From Halorhodospira halochloris (GTDB taxonomy: Bacteria; Pseudomonadota; Gammaproteobacteria; Nitrococcales; Halorhodospiraceae): a DNA stretch of 64,000 nucleotides. The notes below the pieces were generated by a model, which saw nothing but the letters and a program-made list of their open reading frames with translations, made no database searches and was not told where the DNA came from. How positions within the stretch are numbered: position 1 is the stretch's first letter; each line of letters opens with the position of its first letter. The translations under genes and the position numbers were made by a program. Shown piece after piece: positions 47,389 through 55,151 of the stretch. The stretch is from assembly GCF_002356555.2 (NCBI RefSeq), contig NZ_AP017372.2:1-64000 (forward strand). The letters are read 5' to 3'.

Positions 47389-48378
47389 TTACTTATTATC
47401 ATTAGCTATAGGGAAATTGCTTAAGATAGTATAAACATCTGGCTTTTGCTTAGCGAGCATGCTTATGACTTCAATCCACTCTCTGCTAGCTATCTTGACT
47501 GGCACACCATAAGCCTTTGCGTATGCGTGAAGAAAACGCTTAAAGATCAGTCTAGGGGGGGTGGTTCCTATTAACTTAGGCAGGCCTAGTAAGTGTATAC
47601 GTGACATTTTTTTTAACCGATGAAGGCGAACTGGCTTAGGAAGCCAGCCAATGAAGTAAATATTATCTATGTCTAAGACAGTTAGTGAATGGTGGCCTCT
47701 GTGGTTGACTCCATACAAGAAATTACCACGTATAGGATCCATATGCAAAAATCCTGATCGCACCAAATTACCCCAAGCACGCCCCATTTCGGCAGCTATA
47801 TGTAATCCCGTATTGAGACACACGCTTGTTTTTGCGAGATCCTTAACAGTTATGCCTTCTTCTCTCTCCATGATGTAGATGCCAACAGCCCGTTCGTTTG
47901 TTGTTAAACGGAAAGCTGCGATAGGTTTTGGTGTTGATACACCAGCTGCGATAAGCTTCTCTGCTGTGGCGAACAAATATTTTGGTGGGCGCAAGAAGGA
48001 CTTGATTCTCTCCTTCGGGCCAGTAGGAGAGTAAAGCTTAATTATAAAATCATGTCCGCTGTGGTCACGCCAGCGATAGACATAAGATTTAGATGATTTG
48101 ATTAACTCTAGGGTCCAGCCGTTGTGCTCTATATTACTACTGGAAAGCAATGCACCGATAATACATGAGATTATATCTGTATTTATCTCGGTGCAGAATT
48201 TTGCACGATCTATAGTGCCATCAATATTCATATTGATTCTACGCGCAGTTTCATTGCTCAGCGTCTTTGACATGAGATTATTTAGGGCTGCAAACGGCAA
48301 GGGAATATGGAGTGGATGAATATCTTTTGGGCATAATTTAGTTATCTTGTTGTGTGCCTTTTTTAAAAGAAAATACAC
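47389..48378 (-). CDS. Lipopolysaccharide kinase-like protein (second of a pair)
   Basis: 329-residue protein with a eukaryotic-type small-kinase fold of the RfaP/InaA/KdkA group. It has a beta-lysine region HDFIIKLYSPTGPKERIKSFLRP, then VGIYIMEREEGITVKDL, the catalytic-loop-like SGFLHMDPIRGNFLYG (Asp and Asn in place) and the metal-binding-like VLDIDNIYF. The likely role is phosphorylation of lipopolysaccharide core or heptose, but the substrate is not shown. The drawn GTG start overlaps the upstream kinase gene by 41 bases. An internal ATG at 48273 is an alternative. The gene is AT-rich, consistent with lateral acquisition. Confidence 0.65.
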   Translation of the reverse strand: MYFLLKKAHNKITKLCPKDIHPLHIPLPFAALNNLMSKTLSNETARRINMNIDGTIDRAKFCTEINTDIISCIIGALLSSSNIEHNGWTLELIKSSKSYVYRWRDHSGHDFIIKLYSPTGPKERIKSFLRPPKYLFATAEKLIAAGVSTPKPIAAFRLTTNERAVGIYIMEREEGITVKDLAKTSVCLNTGLHIAAEMGRAWGNLVRSGFLHMDPIRGNFLYGVNHRGHHSLTVLDIDNIYFIGWLPKPVRLHRLKKMSRIHLLGLPKLIGTTPPRLIFKRFLHAYAKAYGVPVKIASREWIEVISMLAKQKPDVYTILSNFPIANDNK

Positions 48379-49261
48379 TGAGCAGTGGGCGTAAACGTCT
48401 ACGGTTGTATCTGACTAGGTGATGTCGAAATGTCCTTAATGGCATATAAATACCCCACAAAAAACGTCTCTGAACAAAGTTTAGATCTTTTTCATTTAGC
48501 TCATTTATATAAGCGGCCCAAGCGGCCTGGAAATAAACTGGTGGTAAACGTAGCTTTAATAACTTTCTTGCCGCACCAAAGAGAGTTAAGTGGCCTTCTC
48601 CTAGTGCTTCTATATCAACGATTGTTAGATTACAAGTGTTACTGCCATGTTCATTGTTTGTGATATCCATAATGTTTGCCATTCTACAATCTTGTAGATG
48701 AACACCGCATCTGTGTAATCTGGCTAGATATGTTCCGATACGTTTTGCAGTGTGAATTAAGATTAGATGTTCATCAGAGCTTTGCTCTTCATTAGGTTCT
48801 GTTAATGGTTGACCGTCGACGTATCGGCTTATTAAACAAGATTTAAAAATATGATCCTTTTCGTAATAATCAACCGCGGCGATTGGTTCACAAACAGATC
48901 CGGGTAGTCCCCGATGCGCTTTTATGCCAATCAGCCATGGGAGGACGGAGGAGCGCCGCTTAGTTTTTCCAGGGTTTGTGTATTTAAGAACAATAGGGCC
49001 AAAATTCAAAGTGTCTAGCAGGTAAACGTTGTGTCGGCGGCGTGCAGAAATCAAAATACCGCTGAAAGGTATTTGATTTTCCCAGAGTGGAAATAACCTG
49101 TTAAAATCAGACGTCGTCAGGACAGAAGAATTGGTTACATAAATTTTTTCATTTCTTAACGTATTATAATCAATATGGGGATCCTGCGAGGAAGCAGCTT
49201 CTACCTTGCATCTTAAGGAAGAAATTCGGTTCATTTTATCGGTGAATTGCTCTAAAAACAT
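48338..49261 (-). CDS. Lipopolysaccharide kinase-like protein (first of a pair)
   Basis: 307 residues with the same type of kinase-like core. IVLKYTNPGKTKRRSSVLPWLIG carries the probable ATP lysine. CLISRYVDGQPLTEP is the hinge, and HRCGVHLQDCRMANIMD the catalytic loop with Asp and Asn. TIVDIEALGEG is the metal-binding segment. The C-terminus is basic and Arg-rich. It precedes and overlaps the second kinase-like gene on the minus strand, so the two are probably co-translated. Substrate unknown; lipopolysaccharide core phosphorylation is the family precedent. Low GC content. Confidence 0.65.
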   Translation of the reverse strand: MFLEQFTDKMNRISSLRCKVEAASSQDPHIDYNTLRNEKIYVTNSSVLTTSDFNRLFPLWENQIPFSGILISARRRHNVYLLDTLNFGPIVLKYTNPGKTKRRSSVLPWLIGIKAHRGLPGSVCEPIAAVDYYEKDHIFKSCLISRYVDGQPLTEPNEEQSSDEHLILIHTAKRIGTYLARLHRCGVHLQDCRMANIMDITNNEHGSNTCNLTIVDIEALGEGHLTLFGAARKLLKLRLPPVYFQAAWAAYINELNEKDLNFVQRRFLWGIYMPLRTFRHHLVRYNRRRLRPLLSVFSFKKGTQQDN

Positions 49262-50016: not shown

Positions 50017-50127
50017 CTGGTATTGGTGCGAGACAATGGCATAGGAGCCATAGTCTTAGCCCGGCACGTTGACGTAATAAACCACGTAGCCTAAACCCCA
50101 ATATGATGATTGATCAAGGGGAATACC

Positions 50128-50754
50128 ATGAGCAAATACACTACAACAGCCAGTACTCTAGTTTTGGCAATGGCGCTAAGCGGAACTGCTTGGGCGGTTA
50201 CAGATGAAAACAACGCTAACGGCAATGACCAAGGAGGTACCCCATCATCTGTTAATACCCAAGCAGATGCTAGTGGAGCGGCAGCTAGCGAGGGGTCTAC
50301 AGCTCGAGCCGATAACAGAGAAATGACTGAATCGCATAATCATTCTGATTCATATAACCGCAGCATGAGCGATTCAAAAAATCAGCATGATGCCTCGGAT
50401 AACAGCAGCAGTGTAGCCGATTCACACAACGACAACTCTGACCACAGCAAAGACATAGCTGAGTCTTACAATACTATGCACGACTCGCATAACGAGTATG
50501 CTGACTCTTTCAATAACTTCCTGGATATTGAAGCTACTGTAGCTATGTCCGAGCTAAAAGGTACAGTAACAGGAAATACCCTGAGTCTTGGCGGAGAGAG
50601 CGATGCTGTGTTTCGGGTTAACAACTCCCTGCATGAAGGATCCGTATCTGGTAACGCAGGAATTACCCAAGTTTCACAGAATGGAGGGGTGGGTAGTCTG
50701 ATCCAGCAGAATGTAACAATGCAGGGTAACGTGAGCATCAACCCGACCAATTAG
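50128..50754 (+). CDS. Secreted Asn/Asp/Ser/His-rich protein of a Fap-like locus
   Basis: 208 residues. A Sec signal peptide ends near residue 22 (STLVLAMALSGTAWA). A low-complexity segment (about residues 60-135) repeats the pattern D-S-x-N roughly every 6 to 7 residues (DSYN, DSKN, DSHN, DSFN). The C-terminal domain contains NTLSLGG and ends GITQVSQNGGVGSLIQQNV and NVSINPTN, with the regular Asn/Gln spacing often seen in secreted fibre-forming proteins. ATG 50128 follows AAGGGG at a good distance. I do not recognise a named family; the setting suggests an extracellular or periplasmic matrix component. First gene after a sigma-54 promoter. Confidence 0.8.
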   Translation: MSKYTTTASTLVLAMALSGTAWAVTDENNANGNDQGGTPSSVNTQADASGAAASEGSTARADNREMTESHNHSDSYNRSMSDSKNQHDASDNSSSVADSHNDNSDHSKDIAESYNTMHDSHNEYADSFNNFLDIEATVAMSELKGTVTGNTLSLGGESDAVFRVNNSLHEGSVSGNAGITQVSQNGGVGSLIQQNVTMQGNVSINPTN

Positions 50755-50769
50755 AGACAGCAAGCAAAA

Positions 50770-50816
50770 GCCACCGAGCCCGGTCGAGCAGTTACGTTCG
50801 CCGGGCTGCGGTTGGC
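50770..50816 (+). terminator. Hairpin between the first two secreted-protein genes
   Basis: AGCCCGG (50777-50783) pairs with CCGGGCT (50801-50807), extended by an outer GCCA/TGGC pair, with a 17-base loop. It lies 16 bases after the first stop codon. No T-tract follows, so attenuation or mRNA stabilisation, giving more of the first product than of the downstream ones, is more likely than full termination. Confidence 0.5.
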
Positions 50817-50878
50817 AAAGATTTCTAGCGTAGCCATGATCAAAGATAATTGGTGCATTAATCTCAGGAGTATCAGTA

Positions 50879-51274
50879 ATGGAACTTCACTTTCAACCGG
50901 TACAAAAAAGGAAGGTAAAAAGATTAAAAATATTGGTATTAGGTGCTGCGATGACTGCCATGCCGATATATTCAGCTGCTGAAGCACCCTCGTTAGGTCA
51001 GCTAGGGTTTGAGGCATTGCTAGGTGATCCAGTTAATAGCGAGGAATTGGGCTATCAACGCGGACAAGCTGATACCTTTCAACTCCAAGGCAGTGCTATA
51101 TCAGAGCAGGGAGCTGTTTTAGGTAACCAAATTGAGTATAGCCCAAGCGGCTCAAACATCATTAATAGTGGGGCGCTGCACGATAACCATGGACTAACTA
51201 CAGTAATCCAGAACTCAGGACATCATGTGATCATCCAAGAAGCTACCAACATAAATGTTTCGGTAAGGCCATGA
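50879..51274 (+). CDS. Small exported protein of the Fap-like locus
   Basis: 131 residues. The N-terminus is basic then hydrophobic (KRKVKRLKILVLGAAMTAMPIYSAAEA), an export signal. The mature part has ELGYQRGQADTFQLQGSAI, then SGSNIINSGALHDNHGL and TTVIQNSGHHVIIQEATNIN, whose Asn/Gln-spaced strands resemble the C-terminus of the preceding protein. CAGGAG precedes the ATG. Its stop overlaps the ATG of the next gene (ATGA). Not assigned to a named family; probably a secreted partner or minor component of the same structure. Confidence 0.75.
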   Translation: MELHFQPVQKRKVKRLKILVLGAAMTAMPIYSAAEAPSLGQLGFEALLGDPVNSEELGYQRGQADTFQLQGSAISEQGAVLGNQIEYSPSGSNIINSGALHDNHGLTTVIQNSGHHVIIQEATNINVSVRP

Positions 51275-51403
51275 AAAAGGGGATGGGGGGGAACTATTCT
51301 CGGAGTAGCTGTCTGGCTGTCAGCAGCACATGTTGGCGCTGTCCATGGAGCCGCCGTTCCCATTCAGCAACTCGGAGGAGGCCACCAAGTTGCTGTAGAA
51401 AGC
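51271..51403 (+). pseudogene. Frameshifted 5' end (signal peptide) of the C39 peptidase gene
   Basis: ATG 51271 overlaps the stop of the upstream gene. A run of seven G (51285-51291) puts it out of frame with the peptidase. Reading six G instead gives MKKGMGG followed by TILGVAVWLSAAHVGAVHGA, a clean signal peptide that continues without a stop into the C39 domain at 51404. The frame used by the peptidase has no ATG, GTG or TTG between the preceding stop and 51404. This is either a real one-base shift (mutation or phase variation) or a sequencing error. Confidence 0.65.
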
Positions 51404-51973
51404 ATGCAGTCTCTTCGATTCCGCGGGGTCGAGAGGCAACAACTGGATTATAGCTGTGGCTCTGCAGCTGTAGCGACCCTGCTGGCATACCACTACGACT
51501 ATACGAGTAGTGAACCGGAGGTATTCAAAGGAATGATTGCCCTTGCTGATCCGGATATAGTGCAGTCTGAGGGATTCTCGATGCTGGATATGCGGCTATA
51601 TCTCGCTGAGCAAGGTTTTCGTGCGGATGGATTTAACCTTACACTTGAGCAAGTTGCTGAGCTAGAGATACCGGGAATAGTTTTAATTGACACTGGGGGA
51701 TATAAGCATTTCGTGGTTATCAAAGGAATTAAGGGAGATCTTGTGCTAGTCGGTGATCCGGCTATGGGGCTGCGCACTTACAGCGTTGAACGTTTTGCGC
51801 AAATTCGACGCGGACCATTGCTGATAATTCGTGACCGCCACGACTTAGCGCAGCTCTCCTTCAATCCTGAAAGTGCATGGTCTGTTCAGCCTCAGCCACC
51901 GTATAGAACTGCATTTGATCAGCAGTGGTTAGGGGACTTCATGTTGAATTTGCGTCAGCCGGGAGAATGGTGA
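51404..51973 (+). CDS. C39-family peptidase domain protein (FapD-like)
   Basis: 189 residues from ATG 51404. Papain-like C39 features are the nucleophile in LDYSCGSAAVATLLAYHY (Cys18), the histidine in GGYKHFVVIKGI and the aspartate in VLVGDPAMGLRTY. Free-standing, exported C39 domains act in the Fap amyloid system (FapD) and related secretion loci, cleaving or licensing the secreted substrates. Without the upstream frameshifted region this form lacks a signal peptide and would stay in the cytoplasm. Its stop overlaps the next start (TGATG), so the operon is translationally coupled. Confidence 0.8.
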   Translation: MQSLRFRGVERQQLDYSCGSAAVATLLAYHYDYTSSEPEVFKGMIALADPDIVQSEGFSMLDMRLYLAEQGFRADGFNLTLEQVAELEIPGIVLIDTGGYKHFVVIKGIKGDLVLVGDPAMGLRTYSVERFAQIRRGPLLIIRDRHDLAQLSFNPESAWSVQPQPPYRTAFDQQWLGDFMLNLRQPGEW

Positions 51974-52491
51974 TGGCCCTTCACCTTTTTGCGCGGTTGT
52001 ATTCAACAGCTGTCCTGGGGATGGGTGTGATATTGGCCTCTCCCCAACAGTTATTGGCAGCTGACAATGAATATCCTTGGGATGTCCCGTTCGGTAATAT
52101 GACGCATGTGCCTGCAACGGAATTAGCTAATTGGCGTGGCGGATGGACAGACCCGAATGGAGTTGTGGTCCGTTTCGGCTTCCATCACAGCGTGGCCCTG
52201 GACGGCGAAGCTATGAGCAGCATTCAGCTGGATATGGTTAGCTTGCCGCTCAATAGTGACCTTAGGCACATAGCAAATGATGTTGCTAACGCTTTCCGGC
52301 TAACGACCAGCGATGGTGTTGAGATGCGTATCGGCGACCGGGGTGTGGAAATGATCCTCCAAAATAGCCTTGATGGGCGGCTTATCCAGGTGCTGCAGGA
52401 TTTGGATGTCCATCTTGAAGGTGTCCCCATGATGCGATTCAACAAGCAGCTTGAAATGCTACAGAATCAGGTTATTGAGGGCTTGCACTAA
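51973..52491 (+). CDS. Exported protein of the Fap-like locus
   Basis: 172 residues from ATG 51973, eight bases after GGGAG and overlapping the preceding stop. The signal peptide is about residues 1-29 (LYSTAVLGMGVILASPQQLLAA). The mature part has ELANWRGGWTDPNGVVVRFGF, then VALDGEAMSSIQLDMV, and a C-terminal helical or strand segment (RLIQVLQDLDVHLEGVPMMRF). The N-W-R-G-G motif is reminiscent of the Y-Q-R-G segment in the second gene. I do not recognise a named family. By position it may be a chaperone or accessory factor for secretion. Confidence 0.75.
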   Translation: MALHLFARLYSTAVLGMGVILASPQQLLAADNEYPWDVPFGNMTHVPATELANWRGGWTDPNGVVVRFGFHHSVALDGEAMSSIQLDMVSLPLNSDLRHIANDVANAFRLTTSDGVEMRIGDRGVEMILQNSLDGRLIQVLQDLDVHLEGVPMMRFNKQLEMLQNQVIEGLH

Positions 52492-52719
52492 ACGTAAGTG
52501 GTCTCAGTGTAAAATACTTGATTCGGAATATTTCGGATTATAAGAGATACCGCTCAAATACTTTTTCTTAACCATACAGTTATTACCTTTAGTATGCCTT
52601 TATACAAGGAACCTTGAAAAACAACGCCGCTGGTCGAGACTGTTGGAGTTGTACGGTGCAGATTAGCCCTACAGTCACCCCATATTTTGCTAAATTCGCC
52701 TAACAAGTTGAGTTTGCGG

Positions 52720-53787
52720 CTAAAAGCTTATTGGAAGGCGCAGTGAAACACGTGCATCAGGTGCATCCTCAGTAACGCCGACCCCAACAGATAGTCCTAG
52801 GTTAGTTCTTGGCCCAATGCGGTGCGACGTTCCGATCATTAGTGACCCGACCTGGAAACGGTCAAATTCAGCTTGATCTCGATCGCGTCCCCTGGTCTTT
52901 GTGCGCATTACCATTGAATGGTCGTAACCCAAACTCAGAGAAGTTCTATCATTCAGGGCAATGCCAACACCGAAGCTTAAGCTGAGCGAGTCTCCCGGAT
53001 TGATTTTGAGGCTTTCGCCATTATGTGTTTTGACTTCTCGCTCTATGTTGTGCAAGTAGCTAAAGCTGCCATAAAGTACAGCCGGCTCTGAAGGATGTAC
53101 CCAGTTGAGAGTGGGTTGTACACTCCAAAATCCGCTTCCTGTGGGTTGCTCTGTGAAGATTGTTATATCGTCCCCCTCATCTTCGCCAATCTTCCGCCGC
53201 TCTGTTTTGACATCAAAAGGGTCAGTGCCGGTACGACTTTTGATTCTAAGTCCTCCAGTGAAAATAGTACTGCTGCTCGCGCTGGTGTTTATCTGATAGC
53301 GTAGGGAGGCCTCGATATCTCCTAGGCCGCTACCGCTGGAACTGACCGTTCCTGAGTGATCTGTCCCTTTTAACAGCTCTCGCTCGCGTATCTGTTCTTC
53401 GCGGTAAACATAAGGAATGCGCGCTTCGACTTCTAGCCTGTCGGTAAGGCCATAGCGTACGGCGGTCGCAGCAGTTATTGTTTCACGCTGGCTCTCACGA
53501 ACCGAGATAACACCAACGGCTACCGCTGGAAGTATGGTGAAACCGTCAATTGAAACATGCCTTGTCGAGGACTGCGTATAGCTTATGGAAGGATCGACAA
53601 TGAGACTGCCCCGAGGTGTAAGAATGGTGCGCTGCTGTAAACCGCCGGCGGCCTCTTGGGATGGCGGCGGTTCTGTCGTTTGGGGTGGCGCTGCTGCGGT
53701 CTCTGTTTGTGCTATTACAGGGGTACTAATCAGCAAGGCGGATAGAGAAGTGGCCATAACCGCTCTTTTTTTATAAAAGCGTCTCAT
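52720..53787 (-). CDS. Outer-membrane beta-barrel transporter-like protein (FapF/MetA-pathway type)
   Basis: 355 residues. A signal peptide (MATSLSALLISTPVIAQ) is followed by a Pro/Thr/Glu-rich linker (about residues 28-50). A barrel domain of alternating hydrophobic strands ends in a terminal aromatic residue (RVSLRLPISF). The periodic strands (RYGLTDRLEVEARIPYVY, GLGDIEASLRYQI, LSFGVGIALNDRTSLSLGYDH) resemble porin-like transporter proteins of the phenol-degradation MetA group, to which FapF-like exporters may be compared. ATG 53787 overlaps the stop of the activator gene (ATGA), so both are one transcript. It is the likely export channel of this locus. Confidence 0.75.
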   Translation of the reverse strand: MRRFYKKRAVMATSLSALLISTPVIAQTETAAAPPQTTEPPPSQEAAGGLQQRTILTPRGSLIVDPSISYTQSSTRHVSIDGFTILPAVAVGVISVRESQRETITAATAVRYGLTDRLEVEARIPYVYREEQIRERELLKGTDHSGTVSSSGSGLGDIEASLRYQINTSASSSTIFTGGLRIKSRTGTDPFDVKTERRKIGEDEGDDITIFTEQPTGSGFWSVQPTLNWVHPSEPAVLYGSFSYLHNIEREVKTHNGESLKINPGDSLSLSFGVGIALNDRTSLSLGYDHSMVMRTKTRGRDRDQAEFDRFQVGSLMIGTSHRIGPRTNLGLSVGVGVTEDAPDARVSLRLPISF

Positions 53788-55151
53788 GATCGCACCCCTA
53801 GTCGCCGCATTGTGCGATATAAGGTCACACGGGATATCCCTAGCTGGCGGGACGCGGCAGAGATGTTGTGAGAGCAATTAGCAAGTGTTCGCAGAATGAC
53901 AGCTCTTTCCCCCTGAGCGCGCGCCTCTTTGAGAGTTTCAACATTTCGCCATAAGGGATTACGAATCTCGAGGCCCAGATCCTCCGGAGTAATTATGATT
54001 CTATTGTTCATTACTACCGCACGCTCGATTCGGTTGCGCAATTCGCGGACGTTGCCGGGCCATTGGTGGCGGCGCATTGCCCCAAGAGATTGCGGGCTAA
54101 ATGCTCGTGGAGGAGTTTTGTGGAGGCGTTGGAAGCGTTCTAGAAATAAATTGGCGAGCTCAATTATGTCGTCCCCGCGCTCGCGTAAGGGGGGTATGTC
54201 CAGGCGAAGGACATTAAGGCGATAATACAGGTCTTCCCGGAAGCTTTTTGCTTCGACTGCTGCAGCTAAGTCAACGTGGGTTGCCGCAATGACTCGCACA
54301 TCCAAGGCGATGGACTCACTGCCACCGACACGGGTTACGGCCCTTTCTTCCAGAACACGGAGAAGAGACACTTGGTGCTCTAGGCTGAGTTCACCGATCT
54401 CATCAAGCAGTATTGTGCCTCCGTTAGCACGCTCTAAGTGTCCGGTGCGGCGTTGGTGGGCACCGGTAAAAGCACCCCGCTCATGGCCAAAAAGCTCGGA
54501 TTGAACAAGCTCAGTGGGTATGGCTCCGCAATTAACGGTAACAAACGGAGCATGGTAGCGTTGTGATGAATCATGTATGGCCTGAGCTGCAAGTTCCTTG
54601 CCTGAGCCGCTCTCGCCATGAATGAGCACAGTTGCCGAGTTGCGCGCAACTTTTGCTAAGCTGTTGCGCAGTTCTTTGATGATTGGGCTATCACCGAAGA
54701 TGCCCAATTGGCCTTTGTCCAGAGAACCGTCAACATAACTTCGCGCTTGGCGCCGCAAGTTTGCCATGCCAGCAGCATGCCCTAGTGTTAGAGCAAGTAG
54801 CTGTGGATCTGCAGGTATGGTATGAAAATCAAAAAAACAGCTGGAGAGCATTTCAGCCATGATGGGCGTGTGTGCTTTTGAGTTTGAATCTACCAAGGCG
54901 ATCCATTCAATCTGCTCAGTAGCTGTTAAAAGTTCATGACAAGCGTCGAAATTTATTGGGTTAACCTGCATTAGCCCAACTGAGGGGATCTCCTTAGGAG
55001 GTCTGTAATTGATGTCATCTAGGCAGTGAATTAACTCTAGATGCCACCCGGGGACTAAAGGTATTTGTGGCGGGCGGATCTTCATGCCGGGGCTGGCGTG
55101 AAAGGCGCATCGTGAGGATGCAGCGACTGGGGCTAAAATTGGCGCTCCCAT
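53784..55151 (-). CDS. Sigma-54-dependent activator, VpsR-like
   Basis: 455 residues. The N-terminal region (about 30-135, with CFFDFHTIPADPQLLALTLG and HAAGMANLRR) resembles the atypical receiver of VpsR, a biofilm regulator, and has no obvious phosphoacceptor site. The AAA+ domain has Walker A GESGSGKE (179-186), an intact GAFTGA sigma-54 loop (226-231), LLDEIGELS and REDLYYRLNVLRL. The C-terminal Fis-type helix-turn-helix is NISAASRQLGISRVTLYRTMRRL. A -24/-12 promoter precedes it at 55203-55218 and another drives the convergent operon. It probably controls both units, perhaps in response to c-di-GMP as VpsR does. Confidence 0.88.
   Translation of the reverse strand: MGAPILAPVAASSRCAFHASPGMKIRPPQIPLVPGWHLELIHCLDDINYRPPKEIPSVGLMQVNPINFDACHELLTATEQIEWIALVDSNSKAHTPIMAEMLSSCFFDFHTIPADPQLLALTLGHAAGMANLRRQARSYVDGSLDKGQLGIFGDSPIIKELRNSLAKVARNSATVLIHGESGSGKELAAQAIHDSSQRYHAPFVTVNCGAIPTELVQSELFGHERGAFTGAHQRRTGHLERANGGTILLDEIGELSLEHQVSLLRVLEERAVTRVGGSESIALDVRVIAATHVDLAAAVEAKSFREDLYYRLNVLRLDIPPLRERGDDIIELANLFLERFQRLHKTPPRAFSPQSLGAMRRHQWPGNVRELRNRIERAVVMNNRIIITPEDLGLEIRNPLWRNVETLKEARAQGERAVILRTLANCSHNISAASRQLGISRVTLYRTMRRLGVRS

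Follow-up and report, generated by a model that had tools for sequence, protein, structure and literature searches.

A seven-base G run parts the start codon of a fapD-like peptidase gene from its signal peptide in Halorhodospira halochloris: a candidate frameshift allele

Does the short G run behind the start of a C39 peptidase gene in Halorhodospira halochloris mark a switch for amyloid export, a gene that is broken in the sequenced strain, or a miscounted base in the assembly? The window, a stretch of 64,000 nucleotides, covers the first 64 kb of one single contig, 2,834,560 bases long. On its plus strand the seven G named in the original prediction are read directly at 51285-51291 (a second ATG, at 51283, takes the first of them as its third base). 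The ATG at 51271 shares bases with the stop codon TGA (51272-51274) that ends the upstream open reading frame (ORF), the two forming ATGA, and, as had also been predicted, leads into a short wrong frame: the ORF list gives a dead end of 60 residues at 51271-51453 (plus strand). The C39 frame (51275-51973, plus strand), which has a signal-peptide-like amino terminus, stays open from 51275 to 51970 and offers no usual start (ATG, GTG or TTG) before 51404; it is also the frame of the upstream gene, from which only that TGA parts it. The run of seven thus puts the overlapping start codon in one frame and the signal peptide and peptidase body in another.

The identity of the peptidase is given by its domain, by its best family match and by its catalytic residues. 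The frame matches Pfam Peptidase_C39 (E 1.6e-18), its best NCBIfam match is the amyloid maturation peptidase FapD (E 4e-41, with a score of 140.7 that lies below the cut-off of 330), and the catalytic Cys61, His145 and Asp161 (C61/H145/D161) are invariant in the six sequences aligned. The peptidase body, including these residues, is intact, and no second FapD-like copy was found in the H. halochloris genome. As in the Pseudomonas fap system, a C39 domain with Cys, His and Asp is joined to a signal-peptide-like amino terminus and has amyloid-subunit-like and FapF-like neighbours; unlike in that system, the FapD score falls short, the fapF-like gene lies on the opposite strand and the start is out of frame. 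The Fil pilus pair FilB/FilC (NCBIfam NF050078/NF050079) likewise combines a C39 peptidase with a pore, but its matches are weaker (E 1e-30 and 8e-17), and both genes score lower with these models than with those of Fap.

Two plus-strand genes precede the peptidase: one encodes an exported, N/S-rich protein of 208 residues with amyloid-like repeats (50128-50754), probably FapB/FapC-like to judge by its position and sequence character, and the other an apparently exported small protein of 131 residues (50879-51274), which shares the ATGA with the fapD-like start. A conserved exported protein of the operon follows (51973-52491, plus strand, 172 residues); it occupies the FapE/FapA position and found no match among Pfam or NCBIfam models, and no family model of either collection matched the subunit-like proteins. 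On the minus strand are a FapF-like outer-membrane pore (52720-53877; best NCBIfam match FapF, E 2.7e-41, score 141.8 against a cut-off of 700), which shows 56-61% identity in four genus members, and, adjoining it, a sigma-54-dependent regulator (53784-55151), the same neighbour as in relatives G003 and G007. A FapF-type pore and repeat-bearing subunit neighbours are thus present alongside the peptidase, in a neighbourhood conserved in G003, G006 and G007. Because the FapD and FapF scores lie below the curated cut-offs, we call the locus (50128-55151) Fap-like, as resembling Fap in its predicted products, and do not file it as Fap proper.

The layout of the locus has some features of its own. 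The fapF-like gene and the sigma-54 regulator are convergent with the subunit and peptidase genes (50110-55151); in G007 both are found upstream, sharing the strand of those genes, with unrelated genes in between. The amyloid-like repeat protein has 208 residues versus 448 in H. halophila (G006), with far fewer repeats; its ORF is uninterrupted. Adjoining the locus, two adjacent minus-strand ORFs at 47389-49261, lipopolysaccharide-type kinase-like and of low GC content (0.41-0.42), were unmatched in the regions of the relatives examined.

The gene start was compared with that in G006 and G007, the closest two relatives in which the locus occurs. Both have the same overlapping ATG in frame with the Sec signal peptide and the peptidase, an arrangement lacking in the H. 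halochloris assembly, and neither has a G run at the fapD-like start. From 51299 on, the C39 frame aligns to both without gaps at 67-70% identity; the part at 51299-51403 covers their signal-peptide region and the PIQQLGGGH segment, so the original prediction was right to read a signal peptide in the peptidase frame, and its view that the tract separates this peptidase from its start, a conserved one, is supported. Against G007, differences at the three codon positions number 44, 45 and 151 over 224 codons, mostly at third positions (dS against the relatives was saturated, NG86 returning -1, and hence no dN/dS is given). Since differences concentrate at third positions and the body is intact, the frame appears to have been long under selection and the break to be young; since the relatives have an in-frame start with no G run, it also appears specific to the H. 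halochloris genome. The nearest species, G002 (92% in IlvA), showed no C39 match beyond a weak one (E 2.6e-8, within a 733-residue frame); no FapD-like peptidase and no protein of the 50879 type were found there, and the porin match was distant only. The Fap-like locus therefore looks dispensable in this branch.

On balance the sequenced strain probably, if only just, carries a real frameshift (off) allele of the fapD-like gene and would not make the secreted FapD; the inactivated copy offered as one option in the original prediction fits the data. The proposed course is that a length change in the short G run immediately behind the start made the overlapped ATG read into the 60-residue dead end, which would leave the signal-peptide-bearing peptidase absent or present in trace amounts only. 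The amyloid-export locus would then be silent in this strain, with its other genes still open, because secretion by the Pseudomonas Fap system needs periplasmic FapD (FapD has a Sec signal peptide and acts in the periplasm, and its knockout abolishes FapC secretion; PMC5557850). This reading takes the run length to be true of the organism, with no functional product made and secretion lost. We rank such an off allele as the most likely reading, with an assembly error second and a switch third. The off allele rests on one assembly, in which a homopolymer miscall would look identical, and the intact peptidase body is also compatible with an assembly error or with a reversible state.

Homopolymer indels are the commonest residual errors in closed genomes. 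A miscalled run in a gene that is intact in the organism is a less likely explanation, though one to be taken seriously: the fapD-like body is perfectly preserved, its start is conserved, and the same assembly holds odd runs of 86 and 45 G, whose lengths are perhaps unreliable. We therefore evaluated G/C tracts in 864 kb of genome stretches, the window included. Runs of at least seven number 51, or about one per 17 kb; a tract of seven is not rare, and it is the broken frame that is remarkable. Forty of these runs are flanked on either side by coding-like sequence; 39 of the forty fall within an unbroken ORF of 100 residues or more, and the run at 51285-51291 is the sole exception. Frame breaks were also sought with a Viterbi coding hidden Markov model (HMM), which recovered 85 of 105 simulated single-base breaks but is blind to breaks in the first codons of a gene (a heuristic scorer with 29% sensitivity on simulated breaks had been dropped in its favour). 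With permissive settings the model made 54 calls in 731 kb of coding sequence, none of them, judged by eye, on a run of at least seven, and many close to a start codon where genes overlap; with stricter settings it made one call in 400 kb of coding sequence, off any homopolymer. In the 864 kb sampled there was no sign that homopolymer errors or switching tracts are widespread, and the 39 in-frame tracts, together with the lack of HMM breaks on runs of at least seven, indicate that such errors do not abound in the assembly, which makes a miscall at this site less likely.

The original prediction also raised an on/off switch of C39 export; on this reading slippage in the G run would toggle secreted FapD, and hence amyloid export, within a population. 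We regard this as unlikely. The place is classic, just behind the start codon of a gene for surface-fibre secretion, and very long G runs are tolerated at other places in this genome. In the 5' frameshift of Listeria inlA a short run likewise follows the start, one length being in frame and the other stopping soon, and 5' tracts of six to seven bases there can revert (PMC2831843); that tract, however, is poly(A), polymorphic in many isolates and of measured reversion, whereas ours is poly(G) in one genome, and the one-base loss from A7 to A6 in the seven-base inlA tract was measured at a rate of about 4e-8 (Orsi et al. 2010, PMC2831843). The phase-variable genes of Neisseria offer a second likeness, with poly-G in the 5' part of surface-related genes, but their tracts are of at least nine bases and vary between isolates, and the run of seven here is below the cut-off for G/C tracts of at least nine used in a published phasome survey (PMC5953494). 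The tract is not retained at the fapD-like start of G006 or G007, MutS is encoded in an open frame of 897 residues, and the other genic G/C tracts of seven to eight bases are in frame, including three within 60 nucleotides of a start. Short length, MutS, non-conservation and the slow inlA rate together lower the odds of a slow contingency switch.

Recoding that would yield some full-length product (transcriptional slippage, +1 ribosomal frameshifting or readthrough of the upstream TGA) seems very improbable: G runs can slip, and only the TGA at 51272-51274 parts the C39 frame from the gene upstream of it, but the arrangement is not conserved in the relatives, the tract has neither a stimulatory RNA structure (z 0.47) nor a known motif for slippage in the required direction, and readthrough would leave the signal peptide buried inside a fusion protein. 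Least credible is a functional cytoplasmic peptidase started at 51404, where an ORF of 189 residues (51404-51973, plus strand; ORF list and Pfam) holds the whole C39 domain without the signal peptide, since its Met is Leu in both G006 and G007, no good ribosome site precedes the ATG and FapD works in the periplasm (PMC5557850).

If the preferred reading of a real off allele holds, a change of one base in length silences an amyloid-export locus, and biofilm or aggregation work on the sequenced strain could mislead; if the run is a miscall, the gene as publicly modelled is missing both its start and its signal peptide. We give little credence to the wider proposal that this extreme haloalkaliphile hedges its bets in amyloid secretion, switching it by slippage of a short G run that uncouples the export signal of the peptidase from its start. 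To our knowledge, though the literature was not searched systematically, a switch here would have no precedent among Fap-like systems. The bet-hedging reading is set in a genome with exceptional G runs, of up to 86 bases, before or between other genes. These runs, which may be real or assembly artefacts, measure 86, 45, 21, 20, 18, 16 and 11 bases (at 378291, 2396068, 2157250, 231785, 449122, 97015 and 1919867, respectively), and in G orientation each is preceded by an A; poly-G in H. halophila reaches at most 15 in the loci examined. The run of 18 ends eight bases before the ATG of an ORF of 81 residues.
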